A stretch of DNA of 51,071 nt from Chitinophagaceae bacterium. GTDB lineage: Bacteria; Bacteroidota; Bacteroidia; Chitinophagales; Chitinophagaceae. Within the stretch, counting starts at the first letter, position 1. Each line of letters begins with the position of its first letter. The notes beneath the pieces were generated by a model. It was given only the letters and a program-made list of their open reading frames with translations, did not search any database and was not told where the DNA came from. The position numbers and the translations under genes are program-made. Location of the stretch: NCBI GenBank assembly GCA_019638595.1, contig JAHBTJ010000035.1:1-51071 (forward strand), given 5' to 3'. Below, in pieces: positions 29,496 to 38,180 of the stretch.

Positions 29496-30233
29496 ATGAA
29501 GCTGGATATACTTGCTATAGCTGTGCATCCCGACGACGTGGAGCTGGGATGCTCCGGTACTTTGATGATGGAGAAACTGCATGGGAAAAAGATCGGTGTA
29601 ATTGATCTTACAAGAGGCGAGCTGGGTACGAGAGGCAGTATGGAAACAAGAGCCAGGGAAGCTGCTGCTGCTGCGCAGATCATGCAACTGGATGTACGTG
29701 AAAATATAGGTATGGCGGATGGCTTTTTTAAAAACGATGAGACGCATCAGCGCCTGCTGATCAGGTATATTCGTATGTATCAGCCGGAAATAATATTGGC
29801 CAATGCACTGGATGACCGTCATCCGGATCATGGCCGGGCCGGGCATCTTATAAAAGACGCCTGTTTTTTAAGCGGACTGCGTAAAATTGAAACAGCAGAC
29901 AACCTTGGCAATCCACAGCAACACTGGCGACCCAGGTATATATTTCATTATATACAGGACAGATATTACGAGCCCGATTTTGTATATGATATTACCCCGG
30001 TTTTTGATCGTAAGATAGATTCTATTAAGGCTTACTCCTCCCAGTTCCATTCTGCCGGGTACAACTCGGATGAACCACAGACATATATTTCCACCCCGGA
30101 ATTTTTAAACTCCATTATCGGCCGGCAGGCAATGTTTGGCAAGATGATCGGCGTGCCTTATGCCGAAGGTTTCAGAACCGAAAAAATGATAGGCATCAGC
30201 GGCTTTGACGCTTTTATACAAAAGGATACTTAA
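29496..30233 (+). CDS. bshB1: Bacillithiol biosynthesis deacetylase BshB1
   Basis: BshB1 is a zinc-dependent LmbE-like deacetylase that converts N-acetylglucosaminyl-malate to glucosaminyl-malate in bacillithiol synthesis. The 245-residue protein has the zinc motif AVHPDDVELGCSG near the N-terminus, DLTRGELGTRG, and DDRHPDHGRAG carrying the third ligand. Length and motif spacing fit BshB1 rather than mycothiol MshB. bshA and bshC are not in the window, which is usual because these genes are scattered. It is monocistronic on the plus strand. Confidence 0.92.
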   Translation: MKLDILAIAVHPDDVELGCSGTLMMEKLHGKKIGVIDLTRGELGTRGSMETRAREAAAAAQIMQLDVRENIGMADGFFKNDETHQRLLIRYIRMYQPEIILANALDDRHPDHGRAGHLIKDACFLSGLRKIETADNLGNPQQHWRPRYIFHYIQDRYYEPDFVYDITPVFDRKIDSIKAYSSQFHSAGYNSDEPQTYISTPEFLNSIIGRQAMFGKMIGVPYAEGFRTEKMIGISGFDAFIQKDT

Positions 30234-30837: not shown

Positions 30838-31446
30838 TCAGTTATTTACCTTTTTAGGCTTGAATTTTTTATAAAAAAAGTAAATGAGCACCAGCAGCAG
30901 TATATAGCAGCAATAGTTAAAGATGTCGTGATGGTCAAGACCCTTTCCGATCGTCCAGGTCTTTTTCCACGACTTCACATTGTTTTCCAGCGCAAGCATG
31001 AGCAGTGTTGTACGAATACAGTTAAGTACCCACACCACCAGGAAGCCGGTTACGATCCATATTATTTTTTTCCTCAGCGTCATTTTATTGGCTAGTATAA
31101 ATGCCAGCCAGAAGCTCAAAATACCCAGGCCCACGCATTGCCATGCCATTACCAGCCTGCTACCGGTAGAGGCGATAAAGTATTTGGTATCCGCAACATG
31201 CGTGTCGAACCCAAGGGAACGTGTAATAAAATCAGCGCTGTGCATAATGCTGCCTGTTATCCATCTTATATAATTGAAGTGCCGGTCAATACCGGCATTA
31301 TAATATGCGTCGCCTGCTGTTACGGTCCTGACAAAAAACATGTTCGCGGAATAGAAGGCGGCAAACAGTAACAGGAACTTCACAACGAAAGCCACATCAA
31401 AATAACGGTTAACTGTTTTACAGGCAGATTGAAGAGATGACAGCAT
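30838..31446 (-). CDS. Exosortase-family membrane protease/transpeptidase
   Basis: This 202-residue integral membrane protein has about five hydrophobic segments and the exosortase catalytic triad in order. Cys104 is in AWQCVGLGIL, Arg145 in LNCIRTTLLM and His172/His173 in LDHHDIF. Exosortases cleave and process proteins bearing a C-terminal motif, hydrophobic stretch and basic tail at the cytoplasmic membrane. The length fits compact Bacteroidota forms without the EpsI fusion. No exopolysaccharide genes are nearby, unlike classic EpsH loci. The gene immediately upstream encodes a peptide with just such a tail, a likely substrate. The subfamily is not assigned from sequence alone. Confidence 0.87.
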   Translation of the reverse strand: MLSSLQSACKTVNRYFDVAFVVKFLLLFAAFYSANMFFVRTVTAGDAYYNAGIDRHFNYIRWITGSIMHSADFITRSLGFDTHVADTKYFIASTGSRLVMAWQCVGLGILSFWLAFILANKMTLRKKIIWIVTGFLVVWVLNCIRTTLLMLALENNVKSWKKTWTIGKGLDHHDIFNYCCYILLLVLIYFFYKKFKPKKVNN

Positions 31447-31486
31447 AGTAATAGCTTTAATGATACATAAACCGGTGTGTATACAT

Positions 31487-31539
31487 AAACCTATAAGGTT
31501 TGCAGCGTTGCATCCCGGCCCGGCAAATCTTATAGGTTT
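31487..31539 (-). terminator. Hairpin between the PIDGG peptide gene and the exosortase gene
   Basis: AAACCTATAAGGTTTGC (31487-31503) pairs with GCAAATCTTATAGGTTT (31523-31539), 17 bp with one G-T mismatch. It begins 16 bases after the peptide stop codon. There is no long U run after it on the minus strand. It could be a partial terminator or an mRNA-stabilising structure that lowers exosortase expression relative to its substrate. Confidence 0.6.
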
Positions 31540-31554
31540 TGTATAGCCCCATTT

Positions 31555-31776
31555 TTATTTTTCAACTGTTTTCCCGGTGTTGTCTTTCTTACGCTTGTCG
31601 TACGCTTTTTTAGCGCCATAGGCAATACCCGCCGCCACCAGCAGGCTTACGCCGCCATCAATAGGTATTTCGGTATCGGGGTCGCCGCCTGGTCCGCCAG
31701 GCTGGGCCGGCAGTGGTGTTGCAAAAAAGCATGCGGCCATGATCATTATTCCCGCTAAAAAAGTGTTTGTTTTCAT
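31555..31776 (-). CDS. Small secreted peptide with PIDGG C-terminal sorting-like tail
   Basis: This 73-residue protein has a signal peptide (MKTNTFLAGIMIMAACFFAT, cleavage near PLPA) and a Gly/Pro/Asp linker (PGGPGGDPDTE). Then comes the motif IPIDGG, a hydrophobic stretch VSLLVAAGIAYG and a basic tail KKAYDKRKKD. Motif, membrane segment and positive end are the tripartite form recognised by sortase-like enzymes. There is almost no mature domain beyond the linker. It lies 108 bases before an exosortase gene and 36 bases after a large T9SS protein. Small Bacteroidota proteins with PID-type tails exist, but processing by the neighbour is inference. Confidence 0.82.
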   Translation of the reverse strand: MKTNTFLAGIMIMAACFFATPLPAQPGGPGGDPDTEIPIDGGVSLLVAAGIAYGAKKAYDKRKKDNTGKTVEK

Positions 31777-31812: not shown

Positions 31813-34800
31813 TTATTTTTTAAACAGCTTTATTGTTGTCCTGGTATCCCCGCCTGTTATTCTTAACTGGTAAACGCCGGAAGTAATGGCTATGCCCAGG
31901 CTGACAGGATGTGTTGTGTTCTCTCCTGCATGATGAATGGTTTTTCTTGTGATCACCTGCCCTGCTATATTGGTCAGTTCAATGTTATATATACCCTTTT
32001 TCACATCGCTGAATTCAAGGTATACCATACCATTGATGACCGGGTTGGGATAAGCCCTGATAACAGGCTTCAACTGCGCCGGCCGGGCTGAGTTACGGGT
32101 TAACCTAAGCTCAAACCTGTTGTTACCGGAAGAAGCTGCGTCGGCATTCACCATAAAATGCACCTGCGTAATTGCTGATGTACTTACCGTTGCAGCGCTG
32201 TGCATGTAATGATCTACCAGCGTAGCCGATACCACATCTTTGAGTGCCACCGGGTCAAATTCCAGCAGGTAGCTGGTTTGCCGGGTGCTGCCCAGTTGCA
32301 GGTACAGCGTATCAGCATCCATAACAGGCGATCTTCTTTCTACCATTAAAGAGCGTCCTTTCCTGTTCAGCGACAGGTTTTCCGATACATTGAACAACTT
32401 GGGTACATCCATGCCATCAATGTTGTCGGCAAAGTTTTTACTGTAGGAAGCAAATACTTCGTCCAATACGGTATATCCCGCTGTATCGGCCGTCTGCAGG
32501 TTAATGCGTATGCCATACGCGTCTTTGGCCGGCGTGAATACAATTGCTTCGTTGTCTTCTTTTTCTTCTCCCGCCTTAAATACATTACGGGCAGGGGTAG
32601 CCGATTTATCGGATTCTTTGATCACCATGCTGCCGGCGCCGCCGGCAGCATGTACGAGGAAGCCCTGCCCCGACTGGATATACTGGCTTTCGGGGCTTAC
32701 GGCTTTGGGCACGATGTCGTACCCGGTACCGTTAAAGCTGATGTTCACATAAGCGCCCACGCCTTTTGCGCCGCCCATTTTCGGATCCCATACATAGAAG
32801 CTGTTATCAACATTGTTACGGGTGATGGTAGCAAAATTGATAGGCGATGCAAAGGGATTGGCAACAGCGGTATACCCGGTGGCGGCTGTTGGTATCACCT
32901 GGTCGCCTGTTTTCAGCGGGCCGGTTACCCGCAGGGTAGCAGGTTTGCTACCGGTAGTGGTTACACTCCTGTCGCCCCGTACAAACAGGAAGTAAGGTGT
33001 TTTATTAACTGCATTGGTGCGGGTATTGAGTACATCCGTCCAGGTATCGGTGGCGCTGTTGTAAGACAGGATGCTGGAGGTTTGCCCGGGGATGTTCTGG
33101 TCAAACCCGTTGGCAACCGTACCCTTTGTAATAATGGTACCATACCCGGGGTAGGGGTTAGGGTTGGGCGAAGAAAGCGTAACGCCTTCCTGCCATGCCT
33201 CGTTGATGCTTTGATTACCTGCTACAGGTGCACTCATGATCCTCCATGCCCTGCGGGCGGGTATATAACGTTCTACCGTTACATTACCCGTAATACTGCC
33301 TGTAACCGGTGTTACCCTGGCGGTGTTGGCGGCAGTGCTCTTCAGGGTGAGTTTATCGCCGGTGTTGAGCGTACCATTGGTAACGGTAAGCATGTCATAA
33401 ATGCCAAGAGCAGTACCTATAGTAACCGATCCGTTACGGTTAAGGGTAAGCGCTTTTAATGAACCGCCCTCACCTGTGCTGAAGTTCAGCGCCCCAAACT
33501 CACCGGCGCCGGTAATCACCAGGCTGGAAGTTGCCGAGCCGGTAAGTATGCCTGTCCCGGTAAGCGTAGCGAGCGACAGGGTGTGCCCGTTGATCATCAA
33601 TTGTGCACCGGCAGGGATATTCAATGCGCCGGAAATTAACCAGTTGCCTGTCATGCTATACTCGTTGCCACGGTTAGCCAGCGTAAATGTTTTACCTGTG
33701 CCAAAGTCGGCCGGCGCTGTACCACTACCATCGGGGTTGGCGCCCCAGGTGTCTGCTGCATGCAGGTTACCGGCAGCTTTAGAATAGTATACTCCGGTTG
33801 TGCCACAGCCTTCATCAATCACGCCATCGCAATTATTATCTATCCCATCGCCACATATTTCGGTTGCGCCGGGATGTATGGCAGCATTGTTGTCGTTGCA
33901 GTCTGTTCCCTTGCTGGTTTCAATATAACCTGCCGGGATATTCGTGCCGTAGCAAACGAGTTTTTTGCCGTTATCATAGCCATCGCCGTCCTTATCTATA
34001 TACAGTTCAGCGGTGCGCCATTTTTTCGCATTGTCAGGAGCGCAGTCTGCACTATCAGGTACGCCGTCGCCATCGCTGTCTGTTGTTTTTTCATCCGGGA
34101 AAAGTTTTATGATCCAGCCAGTGCGGGCATATCCGTCGTTTGTTTCTGCATAGCCTGCTATAATATAGCCACCATCCGTGGTTGGCTGGATGGAAGTGGC
34201 ATAGTCGTTATCAGCACCTCCTATGCATTTCTGCCATAGCAAATCTCCGCTGACATTTAATTTTACTATCCAGCAATCAGCTTCACCGTGGTTGCCACTC
34301 ACCTGTCCGTCGTTTGATCGGGTATATCCTGCTACAATATAACCGCCGTCCGGGGTTTCTTGCATGGAAGTTGTCCACTCGGACTTAGAGCCTCCTATGC
34401 ATTTCTTCCAATGTACATTACCAGCCGCACCCAATTTTACGATCCAGTAATCTACACTGCCATGATTGCCGCTCACATTTTTGTCATTTGATGTAGTGTA
34501 TCCTGCTACAATATATCCGCCATCCGCGGTTTGCCGGACAGAATTTGCCACATCGCGCCCTGTACCACCCAGGCTTTTCTGCCACTGGATATTCCCTGTA
34601 GTGTCTAATTTTACTATCCAGTAGTCATAGTCGCCATGGTTGCCGGTAAGGTCACCGTTTTTTGAAGCAGAATACCCTGCCATAATATATCCGCCATCCG
34701 TAGTTTGCTGAATGGAATATGCCCATTCAGTATCAGTACCGCCCAGGCTTTTCTGCCACTGGATATTCCCCGTAGTGTCTAATTTTACTACCCAGTAGTC

Positions 34801-35352
34801 ATAGCCACCATGGTTACCGCTCACATCGCCGTCATTTGAATTGCTATACCCTGCTACAATATAACCGCCATCCGTAGTTTGCTGAACGGATTTTGCCTTA
34901 TCCTCACCAGTACCGCCCAGGCTTTTCTGCCACTGGATATTCCCCGTAGCGTCTAATTTTACCACCCAGTAGTCATTGCCGCCGTGGTTACCACTCACAT
35001 CGCCATCGTTTGAACTGCTATTCCCTGCTACAATATAACCGCCATCCGTAGTTTGCTGAATGGAATATGCTTCGTCAAAGTAACGTCCTCCCAATGTTTT
35101 CTGCCACTGTATATTCCCGGCGGCATCGAATTTTATGATCAGGTAACTGTTAAAATTTTGTGCAGGAATAGCTCCTGCTAAAATATACCCGCCGTCCGTG
35201 GTTTGCTGAATGGAACTTGCCTGGAAATCGTCGTTTAATGTTTCCAGGAACTTTTCCCATTGTATATCGGGCGCCTGTGCAAAAGCATTTTTACCGGTAA
35301 ATGATAAGCAGGCAATTAAGCATAGCTTTAAAAAGCATCGGTATAGTGTCAT
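31813..35352 (-). CDS. T9SS-exported repeat protein with metal-binding motif region
   Basis: This 1179-residue cell-surface or secreted protein begins with a signal peptide (about 1-26, ending in NAFAQ). Seven DGGYI repeats (residues about 45-418), the last five spacings exactly 58 residues, probably build a beta-propeller. [11 protein letters not shown] calcium-type motif follows, then a MopE-like metal-binding segment (about 450-516) with [20 protein letters not shown] and NNCDG. A long beta-rich middle comes next. The C-terminus (about 1100-1179) is a type A T9SS sorting domain with [28 protein letters not shown] and a final KLFKK. It opens the unit with the PIDGG peptide and exosortase. 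Ligand is unknown. Confidence 0.9.
34099..35220 (-). repeat. Seven coding repeats, mainly of 174 bp
   Basis: DGGYI recurs at residues 53, 103, 161, 219, 277, 335 and 393, so units are 50, then five times 58 residues. Neighbouring units are nearly identical in DNA. For example, the AGGCTTTTCTGCCACTGGAT word begins at 34571, 34745 and 34919. This indicates recent unit duplication or homogenisation. Confidence 0.9.
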
Positions 35353-36044: not shown

Positions 36045-38180
36045 TTATTGTTGCCTTAATGCTTTAAAGTTGATAGTTATGGGATACTTTGTAGCATTGG
36101 CATTGGCAGTATCCCTGCCTAGGATTGCTTTTCCTGAAAAAATGCCTTCAACAAAATGATTGGTATTTCCATAAATTGATACTTTTGCTGCCCCTTCTTT
36201 TATCATATATGATTTGTCTCCGGCATAAATGAAACCGCTTGATATATTGTAATTACCCGGATCTGCATTACCGCTAAATATAAAGGAGGTAAAAGCATAT
36301 TGGGAATTGCCAAATCTAAAGTTTTCTGTTTTTCCTGAGATGGTAGTTGCATTTCCGGACCGCATTGCTTTAATATCGTCTGTAGGAGCAGCGAGATTAT
36401 ATTCTGTGTTGTCTACTTTGATTTTCATTGTGGATACGTTGTCTACATTTGTTGCGCTTTTCACTACTATAGTTACCTCATCGCTACCTGTAGCACCTTC
36501 ATTATCTTCTACTGTAATTTTATAGATATAGGTTCCTTCATTTATAAAAGAGACGGAGGTGCTGCTACTGCCCGGCAAAGCAATATTATCTCCTGCCGGA
36601 CCGCTTACTTTGGTCCATTTGTAAGAAGTTATTTGACCATCTGCATCAGTCGCAGAAGCAGACAATGTCACAGAATTATTAGGAAGTGTAATAGTTTGAT
36701 CTAGTCCGGCATCTACATCCGGAAATAAATTATTACCGCAAATATCTAAATAACGATTTTTTAATCCAGGCATGGTTATTATCCCATCTGTTTCCCGATA
36801 CATTCGTCCCTCATATACGGTATCATTTAATGAGCTAAATACAAGTATCTTTCCGATATCATTTCCAGGAAAACACTCTAAAGCAAAGGTGATACATACA
36901 TAACCCGATGATTGATCTACGTTTTGGTACTGCCAGTCGTCCTCGGACTGGAACAGAATATAGCTCGGAAGCGTTTTGTCTTCGCACTGCTTAATAAAAA
37001 ACGGGATGGTAGTATGTATAAAGTTTTCATCGGGAACCTGAACTTTTCCAAGGTCGTTAATTTTTCCTGTATTAAAGGGTAGCATGCCTAATTCTTTTTT
37101 TACTAAAAGCTTTTTTGAACAAGGATCATGAACAGTTATTGTAGCGTCAACTCCACCGCTTCCATAAAAATATACCTCCCCGAAGGAATTAGATGGGCCG
37201 GAAATTACATACCTTCCAATTACTGAAGATATAGTTACTGAAAGTAACGGAAGACTTTCTCCGTAAAAATTCTCAAGTTGAATTCTGAAATATGAAAGTC
37301 TACCATTGAAATTTGAAAGATTATAACTACTAAAATGGTTTAAAACAAAATGATATTGGTTTCCTTGTTTATCAGCTTTGCCACTTTTAATCCATTTCCT
37401 TTCTTCTGTATTAAAATAGAAAAGGGATATCGTGTCGTTTGCGATACTTTGTAAAGTAGCAGGAATGGGTGCTTTTATCTCTACAGTTTTGCCAGAAGCG
37501 ATCTGTAACTTATTTCCTTGCTCTGTTTCAAGTTCTATTGTAAGATGATGAAAGCTTTCAAGCATGCCTTCTTTTCCGCTATTATCAAAACCTCTGGCGT
37601 CACCTGTTAACAAATATTTTGAATCGTCTCTGGTCGGGTCAATTGATATAGCGTAAATATTAACGATGCCTGAGTAAGGTGCTTTGGTATCTTCTTCAAT
37701 TAGAATTCCGGGATGTATCAATATTTCGGTGTTATCGCTTAACGCAATAGTTCCCCCCTCAGACGCTTTAACTGTTCCGACAAGTTTCTTCGGAATAAGT
37801 TCAACCGTAATTTCATTAAGGCTGTCCTTTTGAGCTATAAAGCTTCGAAAGGCTTCGAAATATCCTTCTTTATTAATCTGTACCATGCCTGATTTATCGT
37901 AGAATTCTACGTTAGGCACGATAAATTTTCCGTATTTATCAGTTTTTAAAGTAACATTACTAATTCTAATGTCTGCATCAATTACAGGAACTTTATGTTC
38001 ATCTAAAATGGTGCCGATCACTGTGCCTTTTACAATCTTTTCTTTTGTTTGAATTTCCACGGGATTCTCTACGGGTTCGTTAATACTATTGTTTTTTTTA
38101 CACGAACCAATTAAAATAATCAGGAAGAGGGCAAGCGAAAGCAACTTACGCTCCGGAAGCCCCTGAATAATAGTGCTCAT
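36045..38180 (-). CDS. Large lipoprotein with carboxypeptidase-regulatory and PKD-like domains
   Basis: This 711-residue lipoprotein has its lipobox Cys at residue 27 (LIILIGSCKKNN). A carboxypeptidase-regulatory-like beta-sandwich follows (about 50-125, VKGTVIGTILDEHKVPVIDA and VPNVEF). A long region of unrecognised beta structure spans about 130-490. A PKD/REJ-type Ig domain (about 490-580) has DAGLDQTITLP and SYKWTKVSGP, and the C-terminal 130-residue beta domain is unassigned. Bacteroidota use such modular lipoproteins for surface binding. It has a candidate promoter at 38246-38290 and is the last of four consecutive lipoprotein genes. Function is unknown. Confidence 0.85.
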   Translation of the reverse strand: MSTIIQGLPERKLLSLALFLIILIGSCKKNNSINEPVENPVEIQTKEKIVKGTVIGTILDEHKVPVIDADIRISNVTLKTDKYGKFIVPNVEFYDKSGMVQINKEGYFEAFRSFIAQKDSLNEITVELIPKKLVGTVKASEGGTIALSDNTEILIHPGILIEEDTKAPYSGIVNIYAISIDPTRDDSKYLLTGDARGFDNSGKEGMLESFHHLTIELETEQGNKLQIASGKTVEIKAPIPATLQSIANDTISLFYFNTEERKWIKSGKADKQGNQYHFVLNHFSSYNLSNFNGRLSYFRIQLENFYGESLPLLSVTISSVIGRYVISGPSNSFGEVYFYGSGGVDATITVHDPCSKKLLVKKELGMLPFNTGKINDLGKVQVPDENFIHTTIPFFIKQCEDKTLPSYILFQSEDDWQYQNVDQSSGYVCITFALECFPGNDIGKILVFSSLNDTVYEGRMYRETDGIITMPGLKNRYLDICGNNLFPDVDAGLDQTITLPNNSVTLSASATDADGQITSYKWTKVSGPAGDNIALPGSSSTSVSFINEGTYIYKITVEDNEGATGSDEVTIVVKSATNVDNVSTMKIKVDNTEYNLAAPTDDIKAMRSGNATTISGKTENFRFGNSQYAFTSFIFSGNADPGNYNISSGFIYAGDKSYMIKEGAAKVSIYGNTNHFVEGIFSGKAILGRDTANANATKYPITINFKALRQQ

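Follow-up and report, generated by a model that had tools for sequence, protein, structure and literature searches.

The window analyzed here is one whole contig of 51,071 bases, and its minus strand carries three consecutive genes in the order 1179-residue protein, 73-residue protein and 202-residue exosortase-family protein, with 36 bases between the first and second genes and 108 bases between the second and third. The features of this cassette are as follows.

31813..35352, minus strand: cargo of the type IX secretion system (T9SS), 1179 residues, putative partner of the mini protein (TIGR04183 and PF18962 matches)
32092..33624, minus strand: cargo domain common to most mini-linked cargos, residues 577-1087 (profile match in 84/103 genes upstream of minis)
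31816..32052, minus strand: T9SS type A C-terminal sorting domain (CTD), residues 1101-1179 (TIGR04183, 37.6 bits, cut-off 23; PF18962, 29 bits, cut-off 27)
31555..31776, minus strand: mini PID-CTERM protein, 73 residues (NF046080, 45.2 bits, cut-off 26)
31705..31776, minus strand: probable signal peptide, residues 1-24, with Gln25 next (hydrophobic core and Ala-Gln junction in alignment A8)
31666..31704, minus strand: Gly/Pro/Asp linker, residues 25-37, QPGGPGGDPDTEI (translation and alignment A8)
31594..31665, minus strand: PID-CTERM tail, consisting of PIDGG, a hydrophobic stretch, KK and a basic end (NF046080 match)
31447..31554, minus strand: intergenic stretch between mini and exosortase genes, folding into a long hairpin (minimum free energy -30.5 kcal/mol, z -2.65)
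30838..31446, minus strand: exosortase-family protein, 202 residues, XrtY-like, under the XrtY cut-off (TIGR04178, 45.5 bits)
31135..31137, minus strand: codon of Cys104, putative nucleophile (invariant in 102/102 aligned exosortases)
31012..31014, minus strand: codon of Arg145 (invariant in 102/102 aligned exosortases)
30928..30933, minus strand: codons of His172-His173 (H172 kept in 95/102 and H173 in 97/102 aligned exosortases)

A preliminary description of this DNA had reported the 202- and 73-residue frames, 108 bases apart, and had called Cys104, Arg145 and His172/173 of the exosortase intact; the frames and the codons are all found in place. It had also treated the two genes as a self-contained pair. 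The pair is real, but the T9SS-tail gene 36 bases upstream of the peptide was overlooked. Its remark that the window holds no exopolysaccharide genes agrees with our Pfam typing, in which none of 35 window proteins matched a polysaccharide-synthesis family; because the window is a single contig, this absence tells nothing about the remaining genome. The next gene upstream of the cargo (36045-38180) matches PKD-type models in Pfam, and no PorP/SprF-family gene was found beside the cargo, which has the mini and exosortase genes directly downstream. Close to the cassette, on the opposite strand, lies an ordinary PIG-L family deacetylase gene (29496-30233, plus strand), and a YhgA-like transposase-family gene (PF04754) is located toward the contig end (50007-50954, minus strand). 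No Rfam family was found in the window at gathering scores. As to the hairpin between mini and exosortase genes, 3 of 200 shuffled sequences fold as well, and no terminator-like site was reported within the intergenic stretch; the hairpin might set the ratio of mini to exosortase.

The 202-residue protein lies above the cut-off of 23 bits for the exosortase/archaeosortase signature TIGR04178. Among the named families it agrees best with XrtY (NF046083), at 116.9 bits, which is under the cut-off of 160, and it is likewise under the cut-offs of XrtX (NF046081; 40.8 bits, cut-off 170) and XrtF (25.2 bits, cut-off 90). The AlphaFold2 model has a mean pLDDT of 90.7, and searches of the PDB gave no fold match at E ≤ 0.001 and no sequence match up to E 1. 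The exosortase tree was built from 102 of 110 proteins, leaving out four without a clear open reading frame and four outside 150-270 residues. In this tree the window exosortase falls, with support of 100/97, in a clade of six that also contains the proteins of genomes G028, G004 and G098 and two of G077. A mini lies within 400 bases of 6/6 members of this clade, in convergent orientation rather than upstream in both G077 copies, and the four of the five clade-mates that were scanned with the XrtY model are all under its cut-off too.

The mini protein has the PID-CTERM architecture, its C terminus consisting of the motif, a hydrophobic stretch and a basic end, with the PID_CTERM match covering residues 38-61. 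The full-length profile A8, which itself includes the window mini, matches it at E = 4.9e-25, and in this alignment the N-terminal region is read, by pattern, as a hydrophobic stretch followed by the Ala-Gln junction. Because the PID tail and the exosortase families are already named in NCBIfam, both are known kinds of parts. The small size of the protein, which the preliminary description took to be special to this locus, proves to be normal for PID-CTERM, and the idea of an unusual size was dropped. Indeed, the family search gave at least 150 matches, and all 150 listed, on which our counts of minis rest, are in open frames of ≤144 residues; in the phylum sample, among the matches listed, all PID open frames are <185 residues except one of 995 residues. 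P-x-D-x-G is present in 113/113 PID-model matches read. The presumed mature linker, rich in Asp, Gly and Pro, is short, the median length ahead of PIDGG being 11 residues over 110 minis, and in 77 of these Gln would be exposed after the presumed signal-peptide cut, a count biased toward Gln because the cut was placed by a simple pattern that stops at the first Ala-Gln.

The 1179-residue protein exceeds both type A CTD cut-offs, and PorV, a marker of the T9SS machinery, has two matches over cut-off in the window genome (G000). The window copy of the cargo domain, which precedes the CTD, has no Pfam match, and the cargo-domain model (five sequences; mean pLDDT 68.8) has no structure match at E ≤ 0.001. 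No second copy of the C-terminal 677 residues of the cargo was found in the genome at E ≤ 1e-5, and a profile of the cargo domain has one match there. A MopE-type metal-binding motif (PF11617) is present inside the cargo at 33811-33903 (minus strand), and repeat models match the N-terminal part before this motif at scores below their cut-offs.

The genome-wide search for further PIDGG tails and exosortases that the preliminary description had proposed gave no second protein of the PID_CTERM kind in 7.06 Mb on 52 contigs; one match is over cut-off, and the full-length mini profile likewise has one. Exosortase-family matches over cut-off number two, the window protein and the 448-residue XrtN (354.5 bits, cut-off 200; G000:C3:54538-54825, L008:1015-2361), so that, XrtN aside, peptide and exosortase are paired 1:1. 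Thus the genome contains cargo of this kind, mini and XrtY-like exosortase in the ratio 1:1:1, all adjacent. Two genomes of the same genus differ: G028 has all three components (minis, an exosortase and the cargo domain), whereas G123 lacks every one of them.

The pairing of peptide and exosortase put forward in the preliminary description is borne out beyond this genome. Of 214 genomes in the family sample, 65 have both, 10 the peptide only, 6 the exosortase only and 133 neither; counted by genus, the figures are 37, 3, 1 and 60. These counts rest on 75 genomes matched by the PID model at E ≤ 0.01, of which 67 exceed its cut-off, and on 71 matched by the XrtY model at E ≤ 1e-3, of which one exceeds its own. 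In the phylum sample of 296 genomes, exosortases are found in 111 and PID in 48, and 48/48 PID genomes also have an exosortase. A wide occurrence of the peptide family in genomes without an exosortase, which the same description had named as speaking against the pairing, is therefore mostly not seen (48/48 in the phylum and 65/75 in the family have the exosortase), yet ten family genomes are peptide-only. In none of these ten was a TIGR04178 exosortase match found at E ≤ 1e-3; four (G017, G024, G190 and G208) combine strong peptide matches with a completeness of 93-100%, and the other six have weak matches, are <90% complete, or both.

The peptide also keeps company with the T9SS. PorV is present in 48/48 PID genomes of the phylum sample, and among the 111 exosortase genomes 21 have no PorV match at E ≤ 1e-20, with PID in 0 of these 21 (p = 2e-6, as with our other co-occurrence p values ignoring relatedness; all 21 belong to one family, f17, so that the pattern may reflect a single evolutionary event). 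As PID is absent from the exosortase genomes without PorV, it may serve as an exosortase signal restricted to bacteria that have a T9SS.

To a large extent the gene directly upstream of a mini is of one kind. Of the 150 family matches listed, 117 were readable, and after 14 with <300 nt of upstream sequence were dropped, 103 minis were left, with starts picked by a simple hydrophobicity rule. The upstream gene, defined as the longest complete same-strand open frame of ≥60 residues ending ≤600 nt from the mini start, gave 101 unique genes, two of which precede two minis each. The T9SS CTD (TIGR04183, E ≤ 0.01) is found in 81 of these 101 genes and in only 13 of 100 control genes. The controls are a random sample of the 356 genes of ≥400 residues in exosortase neighborhoods, and their figure is raised by some genes that precede variant or unlisted minis. 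In addition, one cargo-domain profile, grown from residues 561-1100 of the window cargo and iterated on the same set (82 genes in the first profile round), matches 84/103 upstream genes of family minis among the matches listed. In 75 of the 84 the match reaches ≥150 columns away from the CTD-like end; the other 9 rest mainly on that end, the upstream sequence being cut for at least some. The gap between cargo and mini has a median of 54.5 nt and is ≤150 nt in 71/84, and the pairs occur in 44/51 genomes and 27/31 genera examined. Independent loci from other classes of the phylum behave similarly: TIGR04183 is present in 22/27 upstream genes, and the family-built profile, for which these loci were not used, matches 22/28 loci, in 21 of them in the upstream gene. 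Within genomes, the divergence of minis and that of cargos are correlated (rho 0.56 vs a re-paired mean of 0.29, with 0/1000 re-pairings as high; 69 within-genome comparisons in 19 genomes), a co-variation that is also expected from joint duplication alone and is no proof of contact.

The cargo domain is broader than the pairing. With at most seven candidates per genome scored, it occurs in 95/214 family genomes, 26 of which have no PID match. We had considered whether the domain is exclusive to mini-linked proteins; this is refuted, as a mini lies downstream of 1/20 domain genes picked mostly from PID-poor genomes. At loci that were chosen through a PID or exosortase match, and hence give no free estimate of the unpaired share, 12/100 cargo-domain genes were first counted as unpaired, and several of these carry variant minis (PFDGG, PIDKE and similar). 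Conversely, 19/103 minis, about a fifth, have no such cargo upstream, and several of them adjoin an exosortase instead. At one locus of G004 (L096), two copies of cargo and mini lie upstream of the exosortase, and one of the minis has lost its normal tail frame.

Seen from the exosortase, the full cassette is less frequent. Among 110 exosortase loci in the family sample, a mini occurs within 1.5 kb at 33, preceding the exosortase on its own strand at 26 of these, and cargo and mini together are found beside the exosortase at 17/110. A separate scan of genome contigs gave 51 relatives, with a mini beside 6 of the 49 examined; two truncated matches (L350 and L351) were left out, and several of the loci come from genomes already counted above.

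The recurrence, in related bacteria, of a small peptide with a large protein bearing a T9SS sorting domain suggests that two sorting systems generally treated separately may cooperate. The reading that we favor, tentatively and at not quite an even chance, is that a cognate mini-peptide, once processed by the exosortase, helps to display or anchor the T9SS cargo, so that the three genes would form a surface-display cassette. It draws on the genes, their domains and order, the 1:1:1 count, the reappearance of paired cargo and mini genes in different genera and classes, and the co-occurrence with exosortase and PorV; from these we infer cleavage, a conjugated moiety, physical partnership and an anchoring role. 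The frequent cargo-domain genes without minis, the fifth of minis lacking such a cargo, the ten mini-bearing genomes with no exosortase match and the many related exosortases with no adjacent mini speak against it. According to this model, cargo and mini would be produced together, and the cargo would pass the outer membrane through the T9SS. Sec would export the mini, whose PIDGG-hydrophobic-basic tail would keep it in the inner membrane; there the exosortase would cut it near PIDGG, leaving a short Gly/Pro/Asp peptide with its new C terminus joined to a lipid or glycan. The conjugated peptide would then serve as the partner of its cognate cargo and help the cargo to stay, or to be assembled, on the cell surface. 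Because the C terminus of the cargo must be the T9SS signal and has no room for an exosortase signal, the second sorting signal would be given in trans, by the neighboring gene. A wider version, a speculative extension that we regard as doubtful, would make the PID-type exosortases a branch of the T9SS pathway throughout Bacteroidota, each supplying in trans a cognate mini-peptide, processed and conjugated, as the anchor for one particular family of T9SS adhesins. Sorting would then be split, with a single surface protein depending on two C-terminal signals carried by two polypeptides.

The mini might instead be an ordinary exosortase substrate whose product, free or linked to lipid or polysaccharide, acts alone, the cargo being merely co-transcribed under the same conditions. 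Some minis, for example at L081, L097, L129 and L139, adjoin an exosortase but lack a cargo-domain gene directly upstream, and many other XrtY-type genes have polysaccharide-synthesis-like neighbors, that is, glycosyltransferase-like or polysaccharide-export-like genes recognized in gene clusters by eye and in part by NCBIfam matches, so that the mini product could be linked to exopolysaccharide. Against this stand the single profile that fits 84/103 upstream genes and its recurrence in other classes, and the consideration that co-regulation alone would fix neither the partner family nor the order; we therefore find a lone-acting mini rather unlikely. Another possibility is that the mini is left uncut, as a two-helix hairpin in the inner membrane that escorts or regulates the cargo, while the neighboring exosortase has other substrates. 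In alignment A8 a very short loop separates two hydrophobic stretches, which, like the ten mini genomes with no exosortase match, would fit such a protein. However, the best-conserved part of the minis is the PIDGG-hydrophobic-KK tail, with P-x-D-x-G invariant, as is typical of a processing signal, and co-occurrence with the exosortase is strong in the family, genus and phylum counts, which makes an uncut mini improbable.

A further alternative retains processing and changes the role of the product. Here the peptide would sit on a lipid after exosortase processing, and PorU would ligate the cut cargo to its free N-terminal amine, the mini thus being an acceptor like anionic LPS (A-LPS) in Porphyromonas gingivalis. 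As stated in one review, PorU moves cargo to the A-LPS amine, and released cargo might bind amines or short peptides (PMC10202324); the very short presumed mature linkers and the type A CTD of the paired cargo would also suit an acceptor. The Gln start found in 77/110 minis, even if the Ala-Gln rule leans to Gln, weighs against it, as such an N-terminal Gln is reported to be converted to pyroglutamate in Bacteroidetes (PMC5837995, PMC10653852), and pyroglutamate would block the amine. A general acceptor, moreover, would need no copy per cargo. Owing to the Gln start, we demoted the amine-acceptor model to a weak rival, and very little probability attaches to it.

In comparison with known systems, the cassette combines familiar parts in a distinct arrangement. 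A tripartite tail and an exosortase with Cys, Arg and His residues are features of the PEP-CTERM/EpsH family, and the window pair has both; it differs in that its genome encodes one PID-CTERM protein, itself mini-sized, in the T9SS-tail neighbor, and in the lack of a polysaccharide-synthesis family among the 35 typed window proteins. Of the PID-CTERM/XrtX/XrtY kind (NF046080, NF046081 and NF046083), the peptide is a member over cut-off and the exosortase is closest to XrtY; in contrast, this exosortase stays under the XrtY cut-off and adjoins its own mini and a T9SS cargo. T9SS type B cargos are, according to one review, usually clustered with PorP/SprF partners that have been proposed as anchors (PMC10202324). 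The window cargo is also clustered with a putative cognate partner, but it belongs to type A, and in place of a beta-barrel it has an exosortase-type mini peptide beside it. Rhombosortase, the sorting enzyme for GlyGly-CTERM, is described as a membrane enzyme coupled to the type II secretion system, an outer-membrane machine (PMC7468200, PMC11980579), a coupling of sorting enzyme to outer-membrane secretion like that proposed here. In that system, however, the secreted protein carries its own tail, whereas in this one a separate polypeptide does so. XrtF of Flavobacterium johnsoniae is likewise a small Bacteroidota exosortase, although the window protein is far under the XrtF cut-off; a surface-colonization screen in that organism found, with validation, both xrtF and T9SS genes (PMC10936215).

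An exosortase/T9SS partnership was not found in print in searches of the open-licence literature that combined exosortase with type IX secretion, PorU, Chitinophag and Bacteroidetes, nor was a description of PID-CTERM with its exosortase found in that literature, subscription journals lying mostly outside the search; the main text of one T9SS review has no mention of exosortase or PEP-CTERM. An earlier mention of the T9SS partnership of PID minis is thus possible. The targets of XrtF are described as not yet known (PMC12188702), and how PorU decides whether cargo is released or attached is called an open question (PMC10202324). A conserved two-gene unit of T9SS cargo and exosortase-type mini offers a handle on both, as it points to a cargo, a peptide and an enzyme, each of which could be deleted separately. 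The window contains this set in its minimal complete form, each component occurring once in a genome of 7 Mb.

Two further arrangements were observed among the X-type exosortases, which are defined here by an XrtY score of <76 bits, the XrtX cut-off not being applied. At 6/66 such loci, from four genera (L135, L150, L153, L164, L167 and L169), porU, porV and ispF lie directly before the exosortase, with a GldJ-like gene nearby in 5/6; the gene families were checked with NCBIfam in one locus. Such a position hints at a connection with the machinery of T9SS attachment. Directly after X-type exosortases are also genes for proteins of 124-140 residues (L140:8559-8972, L172:3745-4119 and L142:8089-8511, all minus strand), for which no NCBIfam match was found. 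They are gene +1 in exosortase clusters of 22, 7 and 6 loci, and are possibly counterparts of the XrtF-associated protein.
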